Assembly: GCF_008807075.1 (NCBI RefSeq)
Contig: NZ_CP035632.1
Location: forward strand, 496,001-560,000
Length of the DNA stretch: 64,000 bases
From: Synechococcus sp. RSCCF101
Lineage (GTDB): Bacteria; Cyanobacteriota; Cyanobacteriia; PCC-6307; Cyanobiaceae
Direction of reading: 5' to 3'
Shown here: piece after piece, positions 33,104 to 41,682 of the stretch
Layout of the letters: every line of letters starts with the position of its first letter
How positions within the stretch are numbered: the first letter of the stretch is position 1
Notes under the pieces: generated by a model
The model's database searches: none
Seen by the model: the letters and a program-made list of their open reading frames with translations, nothing else
What the model was told of the DNA's origin: nothing
Position numbers and translations under genes: made by a program

Positions 33104-33847
33104 TCATGTTCTGGCGTGCCCTGCTGACAGCGGGGCCATGAGCGCATCGAGGCCCAGCCACCACTGCTCGGATTCAGGCATGGTGCGGCAGTCGTCGAAC
33201 CAGGGGCCGCCGAGGGTGTAGTGCAGGATCCGCGGCCGCTCCGGGATCGGCTGCACCCCCACCAGCACGTTCCACTCCGGCGGCAGGGAGCCGATCTCGC
33301 CGTCCTCCAGCCACTGGAACTGGTGCAGGTGCAGACCCGAGGCGGTGCTGACCAGCTCCGGCGTGAGCTGACGGCAGCGGGCGCAGTTGAACAGCATCAC
33401 CGAGGACCAGTTCTTGCGGGGGTAGGGGGTCTGGGGCATTCCCTGAAATTTCTGGCCGGCGGTGCAGGTGTGATCATGCTTCACCACCTGCACCGCCGCC
33501 CGCTCGTCCCGCAGGGCCCAGAGCTCGGCGATGTCCGCCAGGCAGAGCATGTCGGCATCGATGAACAGGGCCCAGCCGCTGTAGCCGTTGAGCCAGGGCA
33601 CCAGGAAGCGGCTGAAGGAGAAGGCCGTGCTCTGCAGCGGGTTGTGGGGACGCCGGAACACGGCCTTCAGCTGGCTCAGGCGCACCTGGGCGATCCGCAC
33701 CGGCACTGAGGCCCGGGCCTGAATCGACTCCGCCAGCACATGCACGGCCGCCGTCTCGCGGGGGTCGTAGCCGATGTACACCTGCGGGAGATCGAGGCCG
33801 CTGAACGCCTGGGGCGCTGGGGCGGGGGAGAGAACGGCGGAGACCAT
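33104..33847 (-). CDS. Glycosyltransferase (GT8-like)
   Basis: The 247-aa start MVSAVLSPAPAPQAFS (33847) is chosen; in-frame sequence further upstream overlaps the divergent ArsR region. It has VYIGYDPRETAAVHVLAESI at the start, a metal-binding DxD in WALFIDADMLCLADI, VMLFNCARCRQL, and a C-terminal ILHYTLGGPWF segment. These match GT-A fold nucleotide-sugar transferases of GT8 type. The acceptor is unknown. It is divergent from the ArsR-like gene at 33959 across a palindrome-rich region. Confidence 0.82.
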   Translation of the reverse strand: MVSAVLSPAPAPQAFSGLDLPQVYIGYDPRETAAVHVLAESIQARASVPVRIAQVRLSQLKAVFRRPHNPLQSTAFSFSRFLVPWLNGYSGWALFIDADMLCLADIAELWALRDERAAVQVVKHDHTCTAGQKFQGMPQTPYPRKNWSSVMLFNCARCRQLTPELVSTASGLHLHQFQWLEDGEIGSLPPEWNVLVGVQPIPERPRILHYTLGGPWFDDCRTMPESEQWWLGLDALMAPLSAGHART

Positions 33848-33884
33848 GGTCTGATCACGGCAACACGGTGTCACGATATAAGCG

Positions 33885-33939
33885 TTGCGCGGCTGCGCAA
33901 GCCCGTGCTTCTGCAGAAGTGTGTATGCTGCGGCCGCAG
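33885..33939. promoter_or_regulatory. Cluster of three palindromes between GT8-like gene and ArsR-like gene
   Basis: Three dyads occur in 55 bp: TTGCGCggctGCGCAA (33885-33900), CTTCTGCAGAAG (33908-33919) and CTGCGGCCGCAG (33928-33939). A TATGCT at 33924-33929 could be the -10 of the regulator gene. The arrangement suggests an autoregulatory operator for the ArsR-like protein encoded at 33959. Confidence 0.5.
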
Positions 33940-33958
33940 GCCCTCCCCCCTTCCTCCC

Positions 33959-34264
33959 ATGGAGACCCTCGCGGAGTACTTCAAGACCTTCTCCGAGCCC
34001 AACCGCCTGGCAGTGCTCGATTCCCTGCGCGATGGGCCCCGCAACGTCACCGCGGTGGTGGAGAGCACTGGGCTCAGTCAGGCCCTGGTCTCCAAGCACC
34101 TCAAGATCCTCACCGTGGCCGGCGTCGTGTCGCGCCGGCCCGAGGGAAGCCTGGTGTTCTACGAGGTGATCAACCGCCAGGTGTTCGATCTGCTGGCCAG
34201 GGCCGAGGAGCTGCTCACCACCGCCCGCCGTCAGCAGCTCGATGCCCTGGCGGCCAGCCTCTGA
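33959..34264 (+). CDS. ArsR-family winged-helix transcriptional regulator
   Basis: This 101-aa protein begins METLAEYFKTFSEPNRLAVL and has a winged helix with recognition segment STGLSQALVSKHLKIL and wing VSRRPEGSLVFYEV. It contains no Cys and its single His lies in the recognition helix, so the classical ELCVCDL metal site is absent. It therefore probably senses something other than metals bound by ArsR/SmtB. It opens the plus-strand island that includes the pentapeptide protein and the AAA-polyferredoxin fusion. Confidence 0.9.
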   Translation: METLAEYFKTFSEPNRLAVLDSLRDGPRNVTAVVESTGLSQALVSKHLKILTVAGVVSRRPEGSLVFYEVINRQVFDLLARAEELLTTARRQQLDALAASL

Positions 34265-34319
34265 AGCTGCTGTTCGGCGTCGGCGGGCCGGCGCCGGCCC
34301 CCCCTTTGCCGATCTCCTC

Positions 34320-34997
34320 TTGACCGCTCCCGCCCACGAGTCCTCAGACCTGCCGCGCTCGATCGAGGATCTGCGCCGGGCCGTCGCCGCGGGGTCCCGG
34401 CATTTCGAGGGCCTGTCGCTGCAGGCGCCGGACGCGGGCGATCTCAACCTGGCGGCCTGCGTGTTCAGCGGCGGCTGCTTCAAGGAGGGTCGCTTCGGTC
34501 ACGCCTGCCTGCAGGGTGCCGATGTGGAGGGGGTGTGCTTTCAGCAGGCCCTGTTCTGGGGCAGCGATCTCTCCGAGCTCAAGGGGCGGGGGTCCCAGTG
34601 GCACGACGCCGATCTCTCCGGATCGCGCATGCAGGGAGCGGATCTGCAGGGGGCGATCCTGCACCGCTGCTGCCTCCGCGGGGTGGTGGCGCCCGGCAGC
34701 CACTGGCAGGGGGCACGTCTGGTGGAGGCCGATTTCCGCTCCGGCCTCGACCAGCTCACCGACCTGGGCATGGCCAGCTTCCGCGGCGCGGACCTGAGCT
34801 TCGCCCGCCTCGATGGTGCCCGGCTGCCCCGGACTGACTTCCGGGAGGCCTGCCTCTACGGCGCCAGCCTGCGGCGTGCGGATCTCAGCGGCGCCGACCT
34901 GAGCGGCTGTGACCTGCGCGACACCTGCCTGGAGGGGGCCCGGCTCGAGGGCGCCCGCTTCGACGGGGCCCGCCTGCCGCCGGCCATCCCGACCTGA
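34320..34997 (+). CDS. Pentapeptide-repeat protein
   Basis: The start is uncertain: TTG 34320 gives 225 aa, while an in-frame start at 34242 overlaps the ArsR-like gene. From ~residue 35 to the end the sequence is built of A(D/N)LxG pentapeptides (for example GADLQGAIL, RADLSGADLSG, LEGARLEGARFDGARL), predicting a right-handed quadrilateral beta-helix. Irregular repeats in the first half carry several Cys. Such proteins are common in cyanobacteria; no role can be assigned. It follows the regulator by 55 bp. Confidence 0.85.
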   Translation: MTAPAHESSDLPRSIEDLRRAVAAGSRHFEGLSLQAPDAGDLNLAACVFSGGCFKEGRFGHACLQGADVEGVCFQQALFWGSDLSELKGRGSQWHDADLSGSRMQGADLQGAILHRCCLRGVVAPGSHWQGARLVEADFRSGLDQLTDLGMASFRGADLSFARLDGARLPRTDFREACLYGASLRRADLSGADLSGCDLRDTCLEGARLEGARFDGARLPPAIPT

Positions 34998-35088: not shown

Positions 35089-35955
35089 ATGTCCCTCCTG
35101 GCTCCAGAGCGCCCTGAACCGGAGGCCTCCGGCGAGGAGGGCGTTGTGCGGCCTGATCCGGCGGGTGTAACCCACCCCCAGCTGCCGAGTGAGCGAGCCG
35201 GAGCCCGGGGCAGCCCGGCTGAGGCCTTCGAACAGGCCAGGGAGGCCCAGCTGTACCTCGATCAGGCGGCGCGCCTGGCGTCCATCGGGTTCTGGCGCTG
35301 GGATGTGGTCACCAATGCGGTCACCTGGAGCGATCAGGTGTACCGGAACTACGGCTTCGAGATCGGCTCGCCCGTCACCTACGAGCGGATCGTGGCGCGC
35401 CTGCATCCGGATGATGTGGAGCGTCACCACGCCCTCACCTCCCAGTGGCTGATGGGCGGTCCGTTCGACCCGTTCGACTACCGCATCGTTCTGGACGACG
35501 GCAGCGTGCGCACCATCCGCGCCCATGGCGCGCTGTTCAGCGATGCGGAGGGACGCCCCCTCACCCTCTACGGCGCAACGCAGGACATCACAAGAGAGAG
35601 GGCTCTGGAGGATGCCCAGATCGCGGCCCTCTCGCGCACCTACGAGGTGTACCGGGCCACGGTGTGGGCGGCCGAGCACATCATCAACACCCTTCTGAAC
35701 CAGCTGCTGGTGGTGGAGCGGGAGATGGTGCGCCATCCGGACTTCAATCCCGAAGCCCGGCGAGCCTTCCTGGAGGCCCGGCAGCAAGCCTGCCACTTGC
35801 TCGATCAGCTGAGCCACGTGCCCCAGGTCGTACCGGAGCTGATCGAGCGGGCGGTTCAGCCGGTCGCGCCCGAAACCGAGCCTGAGCCAGAGGCCGGGTT
35901 TGAGCCTCTGCCGGAGAAGGAGCCCAGGCAGAAGCCGGCAACCATTCGCCTCTAG
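35089..35955 (+). CDS. PAS-domain signalling protein lacking a kinase ATPase domain
   Basis: This 288-aa protein has a PAS_3-type domain at ~60-175 (ARLASIGFWRWDVVTNAVTW and YRIVLDDGSVRTIRAHG). A helical region follows at ~185-250 (WAAEHIINTLLNQLLVVERE) that looks like a two-helix dimerisation segment with a His, but no HATPase follows. The C-terminus is Pro/Glu-rich. It could be a sensor acting through dimerisation or an orphan DHp protein. It lies within the plus-strand island, 91 bp after the pentapeptide gene. Confidence 0.8.
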   Translation: MSLLAPERPEPEASGEEGVVRPDPAGVTHPQLPSERAGARGSPAEAFEQAREAQLYLDQAARLASIGFWRWDVVTNAVTWSDQVYRNYGFEIGSPVTYERIVARLHPDDVERHHALTSQWLMGGPFDPFDYRIVLDDGSVRTIRAHGALFSDAEGRPLTLYGATQDITRERALEDAQIAALSRTYEVYRATVWAAEHIINTLLNQLLVVEREMVRHPDFNPEARRAFLEARQQACHLLDQLSHVPQVVPELIERAVQPVAPETEPEPEAGFEPLPEKEPRQKPATIRL

Positions 35956-36161
35956 GGCGACATCACACTCCTGTGCTGGCCTGCATCGCCGGACCGCTCT
36001 GCGAGTGTGGAAGTGATTCGCACCTCCATCGGCCGCGTCCGGGGAGGTGCTCCCCGCTGGTTCGCCCCGGTGTCGCTCCACGTGGTTCTTCCGCTCCCGC
36101 GGCCGCCTTTGGCGGCACGCCGCCGCGCTTCCCGTCGCCGCACCGGGCGTGGGCCCCGGCC

Positions 36162-38189
36162 ATGAGTGAGCGGACCCAGCCGGTCGGCCGCGCCCGGCGC
36201 GGCGTGGTGGGCGGCAGCCGCTTCGCCGTGCGGCTGCGGGCCGAGATCCGCCAGGCCGCCGCCGATCCCGGTCAGCGCCCGGTCCTGATCAGCGGCGAAC
36301 CGGGTCTGGAGAAGGACAACCTCGCTGCTCTGATCCACTTCGGCTCGTCGCGCCGCCAGGCCTGCATGGTGAGTGCGCAGGGTGCCCTTCTGCGGCCCGG
36401 TGGTGAGGACCTGCGGCAGGCGCTGGCGGCCTGCCCGGGCGGCAGCCTGCTGATCTGCGGGGTGGACCGGGCCTCCGAACCCGTGCGCGCCGAGCTGCGG
36501 GAGCTGTTGGAGCAGGGCAGTGGCCATGCCAACGGCAGCAGCTGCGCAAGTGTCAGCGGCCCACGCCTGCTGCTCACTGCCGAGCGGACGCTGCCGGAGT
36601 TCGATGGCTGCGTTCAGCTGATCCGGGTGCCGCCCCTGCGGGTGCGGCGGCGCGACCTGGGCGACTGGGTCCGCTACGGCCTGCGGCAGCAGGCCCGTCT
36701 GCAGGGGTGGCCCCAGGCTCCGGATGTGGCGCCAGCCGTGCTGCGGCTGCTGCAGGGCCACGATTTCCCCGGCAACCTGCGCGAGCTGGAGCTGATGCTC
36801 AGCCGGGCCCTGCGCCAGGCGGAGGACCAGGGTCTGCCCCGCACGTCCGCGGCGGCGACGCGGCCCTGCCTGCCGGAGGAGGTGTTCTGGCTGCCGCAGC
36901 GACGGGACGGGCTCCGCTTCGATCTCTGGCGCTGGCGGCCGGCCCTGCGGGGGGTGATGCGGGATCCGCGCCTCTGGCGCGGCCTGCTCTTCGGGCTGGT
37001 GAGCTGGGTGTTCGTGCTGGTGAACCTCTGGCTCTGGTTCGGTCCGCAGGACCGGGCCCACAACGGTGCCCTCAATCTGTTCTGGGCCTGGTGGTGGCCG
37101 CTGATCCTGCTCGGCTATCCCCTGGTGGGCCGGCTGTGGTGCTCCTTCTGCCCGTTCATGGTCTGGGGTGAGATCAGCCAGTGGCTGGTGCGGCGCCTCG
37201 GCTGGCGGCCGGCCGCCTGGCCGCGGGGCAACCAGGACGCCTGGGCGGCTCCGGCCCTGGCCACGGGCTTTGCCGCCATCCTGCTGTGGGAACACCAGGC
37301 CGCCCTGCCCGAGGTGGCGCGCCTGAGCAGCCTGCTGCTGCTGCTGATCACCGCCGGCGCCGTGCTCTGTTCGCTGCTGCTGGAGAAGCGCTGGTGGTGC
37401 CGCCACCTCTGCCCGATCGGCGGGATGAACGGTCTCTTCGCCCGGCTCTCGATCCTGGAGCTGCGGGCCCAGGCCGGCACCTGCAGCGGCACCTGCAGCA
37501 GCTACGCCTGCTTCAAGGGCGGACCGGCCGATGGTGAGGGCCTGGCCACCGCCGGCTGCCCGCTCGGCACCCATCCGGCCCACCTGCGCGACAACCGCAA
37601 CTGCGTGCTCTGCCTCACCTGCGCCCAGGCCTGCCCGCACCGCTCCGTGCAGCTGCGCCTGCGCCCGCCGGCGGCCGATCTGCAGCCGGCGATGGAGGCT
37701 CCGCCCGGCGACAGCATGCTCTTGCTGGTGCTGGCCGGCAGCGTGCCCCTGGCCCACGCCTCCGGCGCGGGGGTTCTCCTGTCGCTCGGGCTGCCGCTGC
37801 TGCTGGGCGCCTGGATCGGCGGGGTGGGGCTGCCGGCCCGCTGGGCGGCTCCGGGATCGGTGCGGCTCGCCCTGTTCGCCCTGCTGCCGCTGGTGTGGGG
37901 TCTGATGCTGGCCGACCATCTGCCGATGGGCATGGCGGAGGCGGGCCGGCTGCTGCCGGTGAGCCTCTCGCCCTGGCTGCCGGAGGGGGCGCTGGCGCGG
38001 CTGCCGGCCTGGCAGGCGGAACCGGCTGTGATCGCCTTCTGTCAGAGCGGCGTTGTGCTGGCGGCGGCGCTCGCCTCGCTGCTGATGCTGCGGCGGATGC
38101 TCCCCGGACGGCGGCCGCTCCAGCTGGCGGGGGCAGGCCTGGTTCTGCTGGCGGCGCTGTGGGGCCGCTGGCTTGTGGCGCTGCCCTGA
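36162..38189 (+). CDS. Fusion: degenerate sigma-54-type AAA domain + membrane polyferredoxin (NosR/NapH/CcoG-like)
   Basis: The 675-aa start MSERTQPVGRARRGVVGGS is chosen over a longer low-complexity frame. Residues ~20-260 align with an enhancer-binding-protein AAA domain (IHFGSSRRQ, VPPLRVRRRDL, HDFPGNLRELELML), but Walker A reads GEPGLEKD, Walker B lacks DE, and GAFTGA is absent. Residues ~320-560 are a multi-span 4Fe-4S protein: CSFCPFMVWGE, WWCRHLCPIGG, CSGTCSSYACF, and NCVLCLTCAQACPH (CxxCxxxCP). More membrane helices follow to the end. It is probably a membrane redox protein with a non-ATPase AAA module; role unknown. Confidence 0.85.
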   Translation: MSERTQPVGRARRGVVGGSRFAVRLRAEIRQAAADPGQRPVLISGEPGLEKDNLAALIHFGSSRRQACMVSAQGALLRPGGEDLRQALAACPGGSLLICGVDRASEPVRAELRELLEQGSGHANGSSCASVSGPRLLLTAERTLPEFDGCVQLIRVPPLRVRRRDLGDWVRYGLRQQARLQGWPQAPDVAPAVLRLLQGHDFPGNLRELELMLSRALRQAEDQGLPRTSAAATRPCLPEEVFWLPQRRDGLRFDLWRWRPALRGVMRDPRLWRGLLFGLVSWVFVLVNLWLWFGPQDRAHNGALNLFWAWWWPLILLGYPLVGRLWCSFCPFMVWGEISQWLVRRLGWRPAAWPRGNQDAWAAPALATGFAAILLWEHQAALPEVARLSSLLLLLITAGAVLCSLLLEKRWWCRHLCPIGGMNGLFARLSILELRAQAGTCSGTCSSYACFKGGPADGEGLATAGCPLGTHPAHLRDNRNCVLCLTCAQACPHRSVQLRLRPPAADLQPAMEAPPGDSMLLLVLAGSVPLAHASGAGVLLSLGLPLLLGAWIGGVGLPARWAAPGSVRLALFALLPLVWGLMLADHLPMGMAEAGRLLPVSLSPWLPEGALARLPAWQAEPAVIAFCQSGVVLAAALASLLMLRRMLPGRRPLQLAGAGLVLLAALWGRWLVALP

Positions 38190-38236
38190 ATCACGGCGCC
38201 GGTGCTGGTGGCTGTGGGCATGCAGCAACGCCGAAA

Positions 38237-38248: not shown

Positions 38249-38309
38249 GTGCTGGTGTTCAATGGTTTTCTGATGCCCGCGGGCGTTGCTGCGACACGCC
38301 TCGTCGACC

Positions 38310-38639
38310 ATGGCCGGTCTCGCACCCAATCCCAGATTGCTGGAGGAATTGAGTCAGTTCTTCCGGCTGCTCAGTGAACCGGCGCGGCTGGCATTGCTCT
38401 GCGCGCTGCGGGAGGAAGCGCTCGATGTGTCGAGCCTGATCGAGCGCACAGGCTTCAGTCAGTCGCACCTGAGCCGGCAGCTGGGCCAGCTGCAGAAGGC
38501 CGGTCTGGTGAGCGTGCAGCGCGATGGCAACCGCTTCCTCTACCGGGCCGACGATCCCCTGATCGAGGATCTCTGCAACCTCGTGCAGGGGCGGCTGCGG
38601 GATCGGCTGCAGTCCCAGCTCGACCAGATGGCCGGCTGA
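38310..38639 (+). CDS. ArsR-family winged-helix transcriptional regulator 2
   Basis: This 109-aa protein starts MAGLAPNPRLLEELSQFF. Winged helix: RLALLCALREEALDVSSL, recognition helix TGFSQSHLSRQLGQL, wing VSVQRDGNRFLYRA. Only two isolated cysteines (LLCALR, EDLCNLV) and no CxC motif are present, so a classical metal site is unlikely, though a Cys redox or Fe-S role is not excluded. It follows the AAA-polyferredoxin gene by 120 bp and may regulate it. It converges on the phytochrome gene with a 4-bp gap. Confidence 0.9.
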   Translation: MAGLAPNPRLLEELSQFFRLLSEPARLALLCALREEALDVSSLIERTGFSQSHLSRQLGQLQKAGLVSVQRDGNRFLYRADDPLIEDLCNLVQGRLRDRLQSQLDQMAG

Positions 38640-38643
38640 GCCC

Positions 38644-41600
38644 TCAGCCTTCAGACCGGGACTGCTGCTCCTTCAGCAGGGCCTCGAAGGCCCCGGCCTT
38701 GAGCGGATGGCTGAGGGCGTAGCCCTGCATGGTGTCGCAGCCGAGCTCCCGGGCGAGGGCGATGTGGCCCTCGTTCTCCACACCCTCCAGGGTCACCTCC
38801 ACGTTGCTGCTCTGACCCATCAGCACCACCAGCTGCAGCAGCTGCCGCGCTTCATCGGAGGAGAGCGCCGGGATCACCAGATCCTTGTCGATCTTGAGGG
38901 CGGCGGGCCGGGTGGCCACCAGGCTGAGGATCGAGGAGCGGCCGGTGCCGAAGTCATCGAGCTCCACCAGGATGCCCATCTCACGCAGGGCCGTGAGGGT
39001 CGATTTGATCGTGTCGTTGAGGCCATCGAGATAGATGGTTTCCAGCAGCTCCAGCCGCAGCACCTCGCGCGGAATGCGCAGCTCGGCCAGCAGGGCCAGC
39101 AGGGAGGGATGACCGATCAGTTCGGCTGAGATGTTCACGCTGAGACGCTCGATGCTGAGGCCTGATTCGCACCAGCGCAGGTACTGCCGCTCCACCGACC
39201 GGATGCCCATGATGTCGAGCTCCCGCATCAGGCCGTTCTTCTGGGCGATCGCCAGGAAGGAATCGGGGCGCAGCAGACCATGGCTCGGGTGCCGCCAGCG
39301 CATCAGGCATTCGGCGCCCACGATGCGGCCGCTGGCCACATCGAACTGGGGCTGGTAGTGCATCTCCAGCTGCTCTTCGGCCATGCTCCGGCGCAGCTCG
39401 TCGACCAGTTGCACCGCCTGGGTGATGGTGGAATCGAGCTGGCTGGTGTGGAAGGTGCAGCAGCTGCCCCCCTGGTGCTTGCTCTCGTAGAGGGCGATGT
39501 CGGCCTCACGCAGCATGTCGACCAGATTCACCGCTTCGATCTCCTTCACCGAGACGCCGATGCTCGTGCCCACATGGCAAATGTGCTCATCAATGTGCTG
39601 GGGTTCAGAGATGTTGGCGATGATGCGATCGGAGAGTCTCTCCAGCACCGGATGCAGCCGCTCCTCCTCCTTGAAGCCACCCACCAGCACGACGAATTCA
39701 TCGCCGCCCAGCCGGCAGACCAGATCGTGGCCGCGCACCGAATCGTTGAGAATCGCCGCCACCCGCTTGAGCAGCAGATCGCCCACATCGTGGCCCTTGG
39801 TGTCGTTCACGGCCTTGAACCGATCCAGATCGAGCAGCAGCACCCCCACCCGGGCGCAGTAGCGGCGGCCGAGCAGTTGCAGCTTGTTGATGCGGCTGTC
39901 GAGCAGGCGGCGGTTGCCCAGCCCGGTCAGGGCGTCGTGCATGGCGGCATGGGCCATCTCCTCCTTGGCCAGCAACGCTTCCACCCGCGCCTTCTCGATC
40001 GCCCGTGAATCCGCCTCGCTGCGCTTGAGCCAGTGCAGCTGACTGAGGGAGGTGTAGGCGGTGCGGCTGAGGATCCCGCTCATGGCATCCCAGGGCAGCG
40101 ACTGATTGCGGTGCTCCGAGACGTACTGCTCGAACGACAGCCGGGGATGCAGCCAGGTGCAGCCGTCAGGAGCCTTGACCCGCTGATCGGGATCCCCGGC
40201 CCAGGTGACATCGAACCGGGCCGCCGCCTTGAACAGCAGCAGCATCGGGTTGCTGCCCCTGCCACCGCTGCTCACCACCCCGGCGGCCCGGGTGGCGTCC
40301 TCGGCATCGAGCTCGAGGCCGTAGGCGGTGAGGGCGCCGGTGCTGAGGTTCTCACGGCCGTGCTCCGCGCACCAGCTGCGCACGAAGGCGGCGATTGTGA
40401 GCACGCCCGCCTCGCTGGGGGCGTTGGCGCGCACGGTGACCTCATCGCCATCCACCCAGGCCAGACCGGTGCAGCAGAGCAGCTCGCGGCAGAGGCCCAT
40501 GATCGCGTTGAGCGCCTGGCCGAAGGTGTTGATGGAACCGATGCCCTCCACCTTGTCGCTGAGGAGGCTGTTGAGGGTGCTCTGCAGCTTCTGGACGGTG
40601 GCACTTTCGTGGCGATCGATCACCCGGCTCAGAGCGATCGAGATGATGTCGGCCACGCCGTTGAGCACGGCCCGCTTGATCGGGCCGATCTGGCGGGGTT
40701 CACCCTCGTTGTGGCAGGCGATCAGGCCCCACATGCGGCCGTTGGCCACGAGGGCGATGATCAGCGAGGAGCGCACTCCCATGTTGCGGAAGTACTGGCG
40801 GTGGCACTGGGCCACATCGCGGAAATAGCAGTCCGCCAGGCTGAGGGAATGGGCACTGCCCTCGCGCTCGCGGTAGATCAGCTCCACGCCGGGAGCCTCG
40901 ATGTCATTCACCGGCCGCACGCCGATGCGCTGAAACACCGCCCGCGCCTTCGGGCCGATGTCGGTGGAGGGAAAGCTGAGGCCGAGATAGGAGGTGCTGA
41001 CCTGCGGCTGCCGGGCCTCGGCGATGACCGTGCCGTTCCAGTCGTCATCGAAGCGGTAGATCATCGTGCGGCTGTAGCCGGCGATGGTGTGGAGGATGTC
41101 GACCACGCCGGTGGCGAAGGCATCGATCGCTTGATCGAGCGGATGGATCGAGTTCTGGAGCACCTTGATCCGCTCCATCACCTTGAACAGCAGGCGCTCG
41201 TTGTCGGTGCTGCGCTGCGGCAGGCGCTCCTCGCCGCCCCGTTCCCCGGCGCCCTCCACCACGTCGCCGGTTCCGGTGGGCTCAAGCAGCAGCCCGAGGC
41301 CGCGATCGGTGGCGAAGCCGCTCACCCAGAGGCTGATGCCGCTGCTGGCCTGGCAGTGAAAGCCGAGATTGGCGTCCTCCAGCATCAGGGCCTCCTCCAC
41401 GCGGCGGCGGGAGGGTCGATCGAGCAGATCCGCCAGAGCCCAGGCGCCGGCGGACGCCTGGCCCGCCGCCAGCTCGTTGCAGTTGGCCGACCAGGCGAGC
41501 AGGCGGCCGTCACGCTCCAGCACCAGCACGTACACGCCCGCCTGGATGGCATCGGGTCGCTCGAGATGCTCGGTGCTCATCTCCAGCCGGTCCCGCGGGG

Positions 41601-41682
41601 CCTCCCGCCGCGCCCCGGTCAGGTCGGACTCGGCATCACGGTGTGCGGCGGTGGCGGGATGCTGGCTGAGCTGCTGGGCCAT
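38644..41682 (-). CDS. Phytochrome with GGDEF and EAL domains
   Basis: This 1012-aa protein has PAS (~45-135), GAF (~165-330), PHY (~345-530), GGDEF (~575-745) and EAL (~755-1005). The GAF has the Cph1-type Cys-His pair (VAQCHRQYFRNMGV), so phycocyanobilin is likely attached; DIP of the pigment pocket reads DIG. GGDEF is intact with an RGHD I-site. EAL reads ECL, but NIS, LELLE, DDFGTG, KIDK, EGVE and MQGY residues remain. It probably links red/far-red light to cyclic di-GMP turnover. A shorter start exists at 41580. Confidence 0.95.
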   Translation of the reverse strand: MAQQLSQHPATAAHRDAESDLTGARREAPRDRLEMSTEHLERPDAIQAGVYVLVLERDGRLLAWSANCNELAAGQASAGAWALADLLDRPSRRRVEEALMLEDANLGFHCQASSGISLWVSGFATDRGLGLLLEPTGTGDVVEGAGERGGEERLPQRSTDNERLLFKVMERIKVLQNSIHPLDQAIDAFATGVVDILHTIAGYSRTMIYRFDDDWNGTVIAEARQPQVSTSYLGLSFPSTDIGPKARAVFQRIGVRPVNDIEAPGVELIYREREGSAHSLSLADCYFRDVAQCHRQYFRNMGVRSSLIIALVANGRMWGLIACHNEGEPRQIGPIKRAVLNGVADIISIALSRVIDRHESATVQKLQSTLNSLLSDKVEGIGSINTFGQALNAIMGLCRELLCCTGLAWVDGDEVTVRANAPSEAGVLTIAAFVRSWCAEHGRENLSTGALTAYGLELDAEDATRAAGVVSSGGRGSNPMLLLFKAAARFDVTWAGDPDQRVKAPDGCTWLHPRLSFEQYVSEHRNQSLPWDAMSGILSRTAYTSLSQLHWLKRSEADSRAIEKARVEALLAKEEMAHAAMHDALTGLGNRRLLDSRINKLQLLGRRYCARVGVLLLDLDRFKAVNDTKGHDVGDLLLKRVAAILNDSVRGHDLVCRLGGDEFVVLVGGFKEEERLHPVLERLSDRIIANISEPQHIDEHICHVGTSIGVSVKEIEAVNLVDMLREADIALYESKHQGGSCCTFHTSQLDSTITQAVQLVDELRRSMAEEQLEMHYQPQFDVASGRIVGAECLMRWRHPSHGLLRPDSFLAIAQKNGLMRELDIMGIRSVERQYLRWCESGLSIERLSVNISAELIGHPSLLALLAELRIPREVLRLELLETIYLDGLNDTIKSTLTALREMGILVELDDFGTGRSSILSLVATRPAALKIDKDLVIPALSSDEARQLLQLVVLMGQSSNVEVTLEGVENEGHIALARELGCDTMQGYALSHPLKAGAFEALLKEQQSRSEG

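Follow-up and report, generated by a model that had tools for sequence, protein, structure and literature searches.

The window, a 64,000-nucleotide stretch of the Synechococcus sp. RSCCF101 genome, contains a gene in which a catalytically incompetent ATPase domain descended from a sigma-54 activator is fused to a membrane polyferredoxin, an arrangement that is conserved across the Cyanophyceae. We propose, with a probability of roughly one in two, that its product is a NapH-like membrane electron-transfer protein at the interface of quinone and cytosol, and that its pseudo-enzyme head gates or assembles it. The gene is a single open frame with an ATG start, and its features are as follows.

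36162..38189 (+): whole gene, 675 aa; pseudo-AAA domain of sigma-54-activator type, NapH-like polyferredoxin and extra C-terminal membrane domain
36195..36611 (+): AAA+ core, residues 12-150, without GAFTGA loop, Walker B acids or arginine-finger helix
36294..36320 (+): Walker A remnant GEPGLEKDN, residues 45-53
36612..36836 (+): AAA lid (AAA_lid_14, Pfam), residues 151-225
36630-36659 (+): PPLRVRRRDL, within the AAA lid
36765-36788 (+): FPGNLREL, within the AAA lid
36966..37379 (+): four predicted transmembrane helices of the NapH-like module, residues 269-406
37140..37151 (+): Cys motif 1, C327-x2-C330-P; NapH/NosR have C-x3-CP at this site (PMC5928378)
37398..37412 (+): Cys motif 2, C413-x3-C417-P
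37482..37559 (+): Cys motif 3, C441-x3-C445-x4-C450-x15-C466, probable 4Fe-4S site, in a low-confidence region of the model
37602..37634 (+): Cys motif 4, C481-x2-C484-x2-C487-x3-C491-P, putative 4Fe-4S site of ferredoxin type
37704..38177 (+): extra C-terminal membrane domain, about five predicted helices, residues 515-672

Orthologues were found in 103 of 386 genomes sampled across the phylum, every match lying in the photosynthetic class, and in 173 of 242 Cyanophyceae genomes (96 of 121 genera) in a sample of that class. The fusion noted in a first, sequence-only reading of this DNA is thus no one-off but belongs to a widespread, conserved pseudo-ATPase family. That reading's single fused protein is upheld: among the class matches listed, nearly all frames span about 660-900 aa and are therefore fused, and the exceptions seen were contig-cut or broken genes. 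A search of GTDB genomes returned 548 related stretches, of which the best 80 were all cyanobacterial, with members in Vulcanococcus, Cyanobium, Synechococcus, Prochlorococcus MIT 0701, Thermosynechococcus, Chamaesiphon, Calothrix and Mastigocoleus. Among the Cyanobiaceae genomes listed, many of the larger ones carry the gene and those of 1.6-1.9 Mb lack it. Searches of the openly accessible literature returned no paper on a sigma-54/ferredoxin fusion in cyanobacteria, and the family seemingly has not been described.

The redox half is the best-conserved part of the protein, with within-group identities of about 80% for the redox region, 56-59% for the AAA part and 51-56% for the last domain. 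A membrane polyferredoxin with Fer4_5 spans residues 269-500, and all aligned members (46/46) carry Fer4_5 and match NapH models. The four cysteine clusters of NapH/NosR/CcoG type that had been recognised earlier correspond to twelve cysteines in four groups (2+2+4+4), all invariant in the alignment, and the complete pattern is present in 120 of 123 distinct members. Eight of these invariant cysteines are placed after the fourth helix as expected for two putative 4Fe-4S sites, the spacing of the first set being unusual. All four groups are predicted to be cytoplasmic: counting helices places them with the N-terminus, and their loops show an excess of K/R. AlphaFold2 modelled the full window protein with a pLDDT of 84.7 and the membrane half alone with a pLDDT of 85 and a pTM of 0.86, the motif 3 region being of low confidence in both models.

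This half resembles NapH/MauN (TIGR02163) and the membrane module of NosR in its set of four helices with two paired-Cys motifs and two predicted 4Fe-4S sites, the layout described for NapH/NosR, for whose membrane part quinol oxidation has been proposed (PMC5928378). Unlike those proteins, it has a third Cys group of the form C-x3-C-x4-C-x15-C, a five-helix C-terminal domain and N-terminal modules of regulatory type, and no nap or nos gene was noticed beside it. Whereas NapH is recognised by two C-x3-CP motifs, here the first motif is C-x2-CP and only the second C-x3-CP. Against the NapH/MauN model the window protein scored 52.7 bits (cut-off 213), which marks it as a distant relative of NapH/MauN rather than NapH proper. 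Foldseek returned no PDB fold match for the membrane half, and Pfam no domain in the extra C-terminal region. Within the latter, the polar residues E593 and Q628 are invariant and lie in or close to predicted membrane segments; that quinone binds at these residues is only a guess.

The NapH matches, the invariant cysteines, the shared layout and the high conservation of the redox part all argue for electron transfer. Against it stand the low model score, the C-x2-CP spacing of motif 1, the absent fold match and the lack of a neighbouring partner gene in clade A, the branch of the family that includes the window gene. In the mechanism we propose, the C-terminal half would be a NapH/NosR-type module with two 4Fe-4S sites toward the cytoplasm and about five further helices, which, by homology and topology, would most likely link the quinone pool of the membrane to a partner in the cytosol by electron exchange. 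The head, in which a cNMP-binding-like domain joins the pseudo-ATPase in most members outside the Cyanobiaceae, may help the protein form oligomers, hold nucleotide without turning it over, or control access to the clusters. We infer this assembling or gating role from the architecture; a redox module coupled to a regulatory or scaffold AAA domain, as suggested at the outset, is the likeliest reading. In the membrane that cyanobacteria use for both photosynthesis and respiration, the flow of electrons from quinone to the cytosol is central to the two processes, and a conserved Fe-S membrane protein of most genera that is apparently undescribed represents a gap in this electron wiring.

Turning to the head, Pfam and Foldseek recognised an NtrC-type AAA+ fold and lid in the window protein, and the N-terminal part of the AlphaFold2 model was most similar to PspF, NtrC1 and VpsR. 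A profile search for both domains in one protein, as had been recommended, found AAA_lid_14 and Fer4_5 above their cut-offs, with Sigma54_activ_2 marginal at 23.6 against a cut-off of 25 bits. The late enhancer-binding motifs PPLRVRRRDL and FPGNLREL, previously pointed out in the window protein, are indeed kept in its lid, and PPLRVRxxD and FPxNxxEL are retained in the family. GAFTGA and the Walker B DE, whose loss had also been reported, are absent from 123/123 distinct members, as is the arginine-finger helix of FRxDLYYR type. A GAFTGA-like regular-expression match in one member (L132) proved to be a spurious chance match in the C-terminal region.

The claim that the Walker A glycine/lysine context had been lost is wrong as regards the lysine. 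The canonical GxxxxGK(S/T) is broken in the window protein, where E50 replaces the glycine before the lysine and D52 the Ser/Thr after it, but G45 and K51 are kept. K51 is invariant in 46/46 aligned members, and D52 and N53 in 40/40 aligned clade A members. Position 50 is usually E and in some members G, giving the consensus GEPGL(E/G)KDN. Because this remnant is conserved across orthologues, we rejected the idea of a relic decaying in the host genome alone: the AAA head is a conserved pseudo-ATPase, catalytically incompetent and not decaying, that descends from a sigma-54 activator.

With sigma-54 activators such as NtrC, PspF and NifA, the head shares the AAA+ fold, the lid, PPLRxR, FPGNLREL and the P-loop lysine; unlike them, it lacks GAFTGA, the Walker B acids, the arginine finger and any detected DNA-binding domain, and resides in a host without sigma-54. 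The host genome contains no rpoN (PF04552), and among 386 Cyanobacteriota genomes rpoN is essentially absent, with one strong PF04552 match and one marginal partial match. This scarcity agrees with a published survey in which sigma-54 and its activators were missing from 29 cyanobacteria (PMC3162934). The strong match, well above the cut-off, is a lone frame of 207 aa. A lone 202-aa ORF (L167:2915-3523 (-)) with a sigma-54 DNA-binding domain scoring 62 bits was noted in genome G125, which gave no other rpoN match. Given the lost motifs and the absence of rpoN from the host, the fusion protein cannot be a working sigma-54 activator, as had been argued on the grounds that cyanobacteria are not known to have this factor.

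More tentatively, and at odds we consider rather long, the captured activator, stripped of catalysis, might serve as a nucleotide-sensing or ring-forming gate on electron flow between plastoquinone and cytosol, with a P-loop-bearing sister clade acting in sulfide or low-oxygen metabolism together with cysteine synthase. If true, this would make the family a new class of cyanobacterial membrane redox proteins gated by nucleotide, in which a transcription-activator ATPase would have outlived its sigma factor as part of a redox protein. The fusion family also offers a testable explanation for 'sigma-54-interacting' domains in organisms without sigma-54.

A redox sensor is a possible but unlikely alternative. 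Here, the clusters would sense oxygen or the quinone pool, and the pseudo-AAA or cNMP-like head would relay their state to a transcription or signalling partner, a role formerly suggested for NosR-like proteins. The head does derive from regulatory modules, and VpsR, among its best matches, is GAFTGA-less, binds ligands and controls transcription without the sigma-54 loop. VpsR, TyrR and HupR are soluble DNA-binding regulators. The head resembles these three in having an activator AAA domain whose sigma-54 loop is missing or altered (as seen in our alignment for VpsR and reported for TyrR and HupR; PMC3162934), but here the domain is joined to a membrane polyferredoxin and the catalytic acids are lost too. 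That no DNA-binding domain was detected in the fusion protein counts against a sensor, as does the lower conservation of the head relative to the redox part, contrary to what a dedicated signalling output would suggest. Proteins of NosR/CprC type were first annotated as regulators, but NosR was later reinterpreted as an electron-transfer protein (PMC5928378).

The cNMP-binding-like domain is found at the N-terminus of most members outside the Cyanobiaceae, which are about 850 aa long (Pfam scores of 34-59 bits), and is absent from the window protein and the Cyanobiaceae. This domain, the extra C-terminal membrane domain and the cysK-linked sister clade had escaped the sequence-only reading. 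These full-length orthologues share the cNMP_binding fold with CRP and other cNMP-binding proteins; unlike in those, the Glu/Arg of the phosphate-binding cassette are not conserved in the domain-bearing alignment rows, as judged by eye, which makes cAMP binding doubtful. A tree built on the shared part of the protein requires three losses of the domain, at the base of the Cyanobiaceae, in family f26 and in one clade B member. The notion that the domain disappeared because cyclases had disappeared was not supported, since short-form Cyanobiaceae keep class III cyclases; the host genome has three matches. Members of family f55, with three frames of about 1134 aa, have two tandem AAA modules, which in the one frame whose sequence was read (L172:643-4008) follow the cNMP-like domain and precede the polyferredoxin.

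We regard it as improbable that the protein would be a CcoG-like membrane reductase of a metal such as Cu, or an assembly factor, for which the pseudo-AAA domain would provide a scaffold. Cu(II) reduction is known from CcoG, a membrane protein that holds two 4Fe-4S clusters (PMC7558416), and Fer4_5, found in every aligned member, is a domain of a wider membrane Fe-S group. The resemblance to CcoG/RdxA consists in being a membrane Fe-S protein, but the relationship is weaker than that to NapH, which is the best subfamily match. The Ig-like C-terminal domain of CcoG/RdxA is also lacking, no cbb3 gene cluster was found adjoining the fusion gene, and clade A shows no consistently adjacent copper or oxidase gene.

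An equally doubtful proposal, that all members of the family act in sulfide, persulfide or cysteine metabolism or in low-oxygen electron transfer, arises from the sister clade. The tree places the window gene in clade A. Clade B (six members from the initial sampling plus 25 sought later, with loci including L084, L209-L214, L220 and L179-L188) has an intact GKT P-loop in nearly all members, and among the members examined this motif is confined to it. The sequence-only reading had named homologues with intact Walker motifs and a sigma-54 gene as evidence that would overturn it; clade B does supply Walker A, but GAFTGA and the Walker B acids are missing from its aligned members as well, and sigma-54 is absent. 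A cysK gene lies directly downstream of the clade B gene at 4/6 of the first loci and 15/25 of the later ones (19/31 overall), on the same strand and often 5-165 bp away. It occurred in 11/18 clade B versus 1/30 clade A neighbourhoods (Fisher p = 1.4e-5).

Spare psbA, petC, ADO and FabK-like genes were nominally enriched at clade B loci, and SQR-like, HdrA/B/C-like and FeoB genes appeared at single clade B loci, so these loci may form a sulfide or low-oxygen island. The neighbours besides cysK were chosen after viewing the same loci and are leads only. The cysK link itself is a lead toward sulfur or low-oxygen metabolism for clade B only, and the window gene, in clade A, has no such neighbours. 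The search for co-occurring genes that had been suggested yielded cysK in clade B, while clade A neighbourhoods contain no conserved neighbour that would name a partner. ArsR neighbours were considered as a functional clue for clade A and rejected because the syntenies differ: the ArsR setting includes a pdxH-like neighbour in Prochlorococcus and efp- and accB-like neighbours in Calothrix (names assigned by eye from sequence).

That two genes were joined artificially, through a frameshift (earlier named as a possible refutation) or an error of assembly or annotation, can be dismissed: three genomes (G257, G342 and G424) hold the gene in two frames, but one intact fused frame recurs in more than 100 genomes from independent assemblies throughout the Cyanophyceae. 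The split sites in the three genomes (loci L049, L050 and L176) fall in the Cys region, close to the first helix and in the linker, and may reflect either broken genes or sequencing errors.

As for the window copy itself, an in-frame GTG at 35973 would add 63 residues, which show no similarity to orthologues in the alignment, and the ATG at 36162 is likely the true start. An antisense frame (35952-38228) gave no match in the domain search and probably arises from the high G+C content. The host genome has one copy of the gene; an apparent second copy was rejected, as this match was the C-terminal part of the same frame. Its terminal branch in the tree is long (0.62 versus a median of 0.16), and it has lost an ELFG stretch kept by most orthologues. 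Upstream, an ArsR-type regulator and a pentapeptide-repeat gene (33740-34264 and 34242-34997, both +) overlap by 23 bases; Prochlorococcus MIT 0701 and its relatives (L046, L102 and L117) have the same pair upstream of their fusion gene. A second regulator, of ArsR/SmtB type (38286-38639, +), starts 97 bases 3' of the fusion gene on the same strand. It is followed by a phytochrome-like protein (38644-41682, -) with GAF, PHY, GGDEF and EAL domains, whose CHRQYFRNMGV motif we take to resemble a bilin-binding site of Cph1 type.
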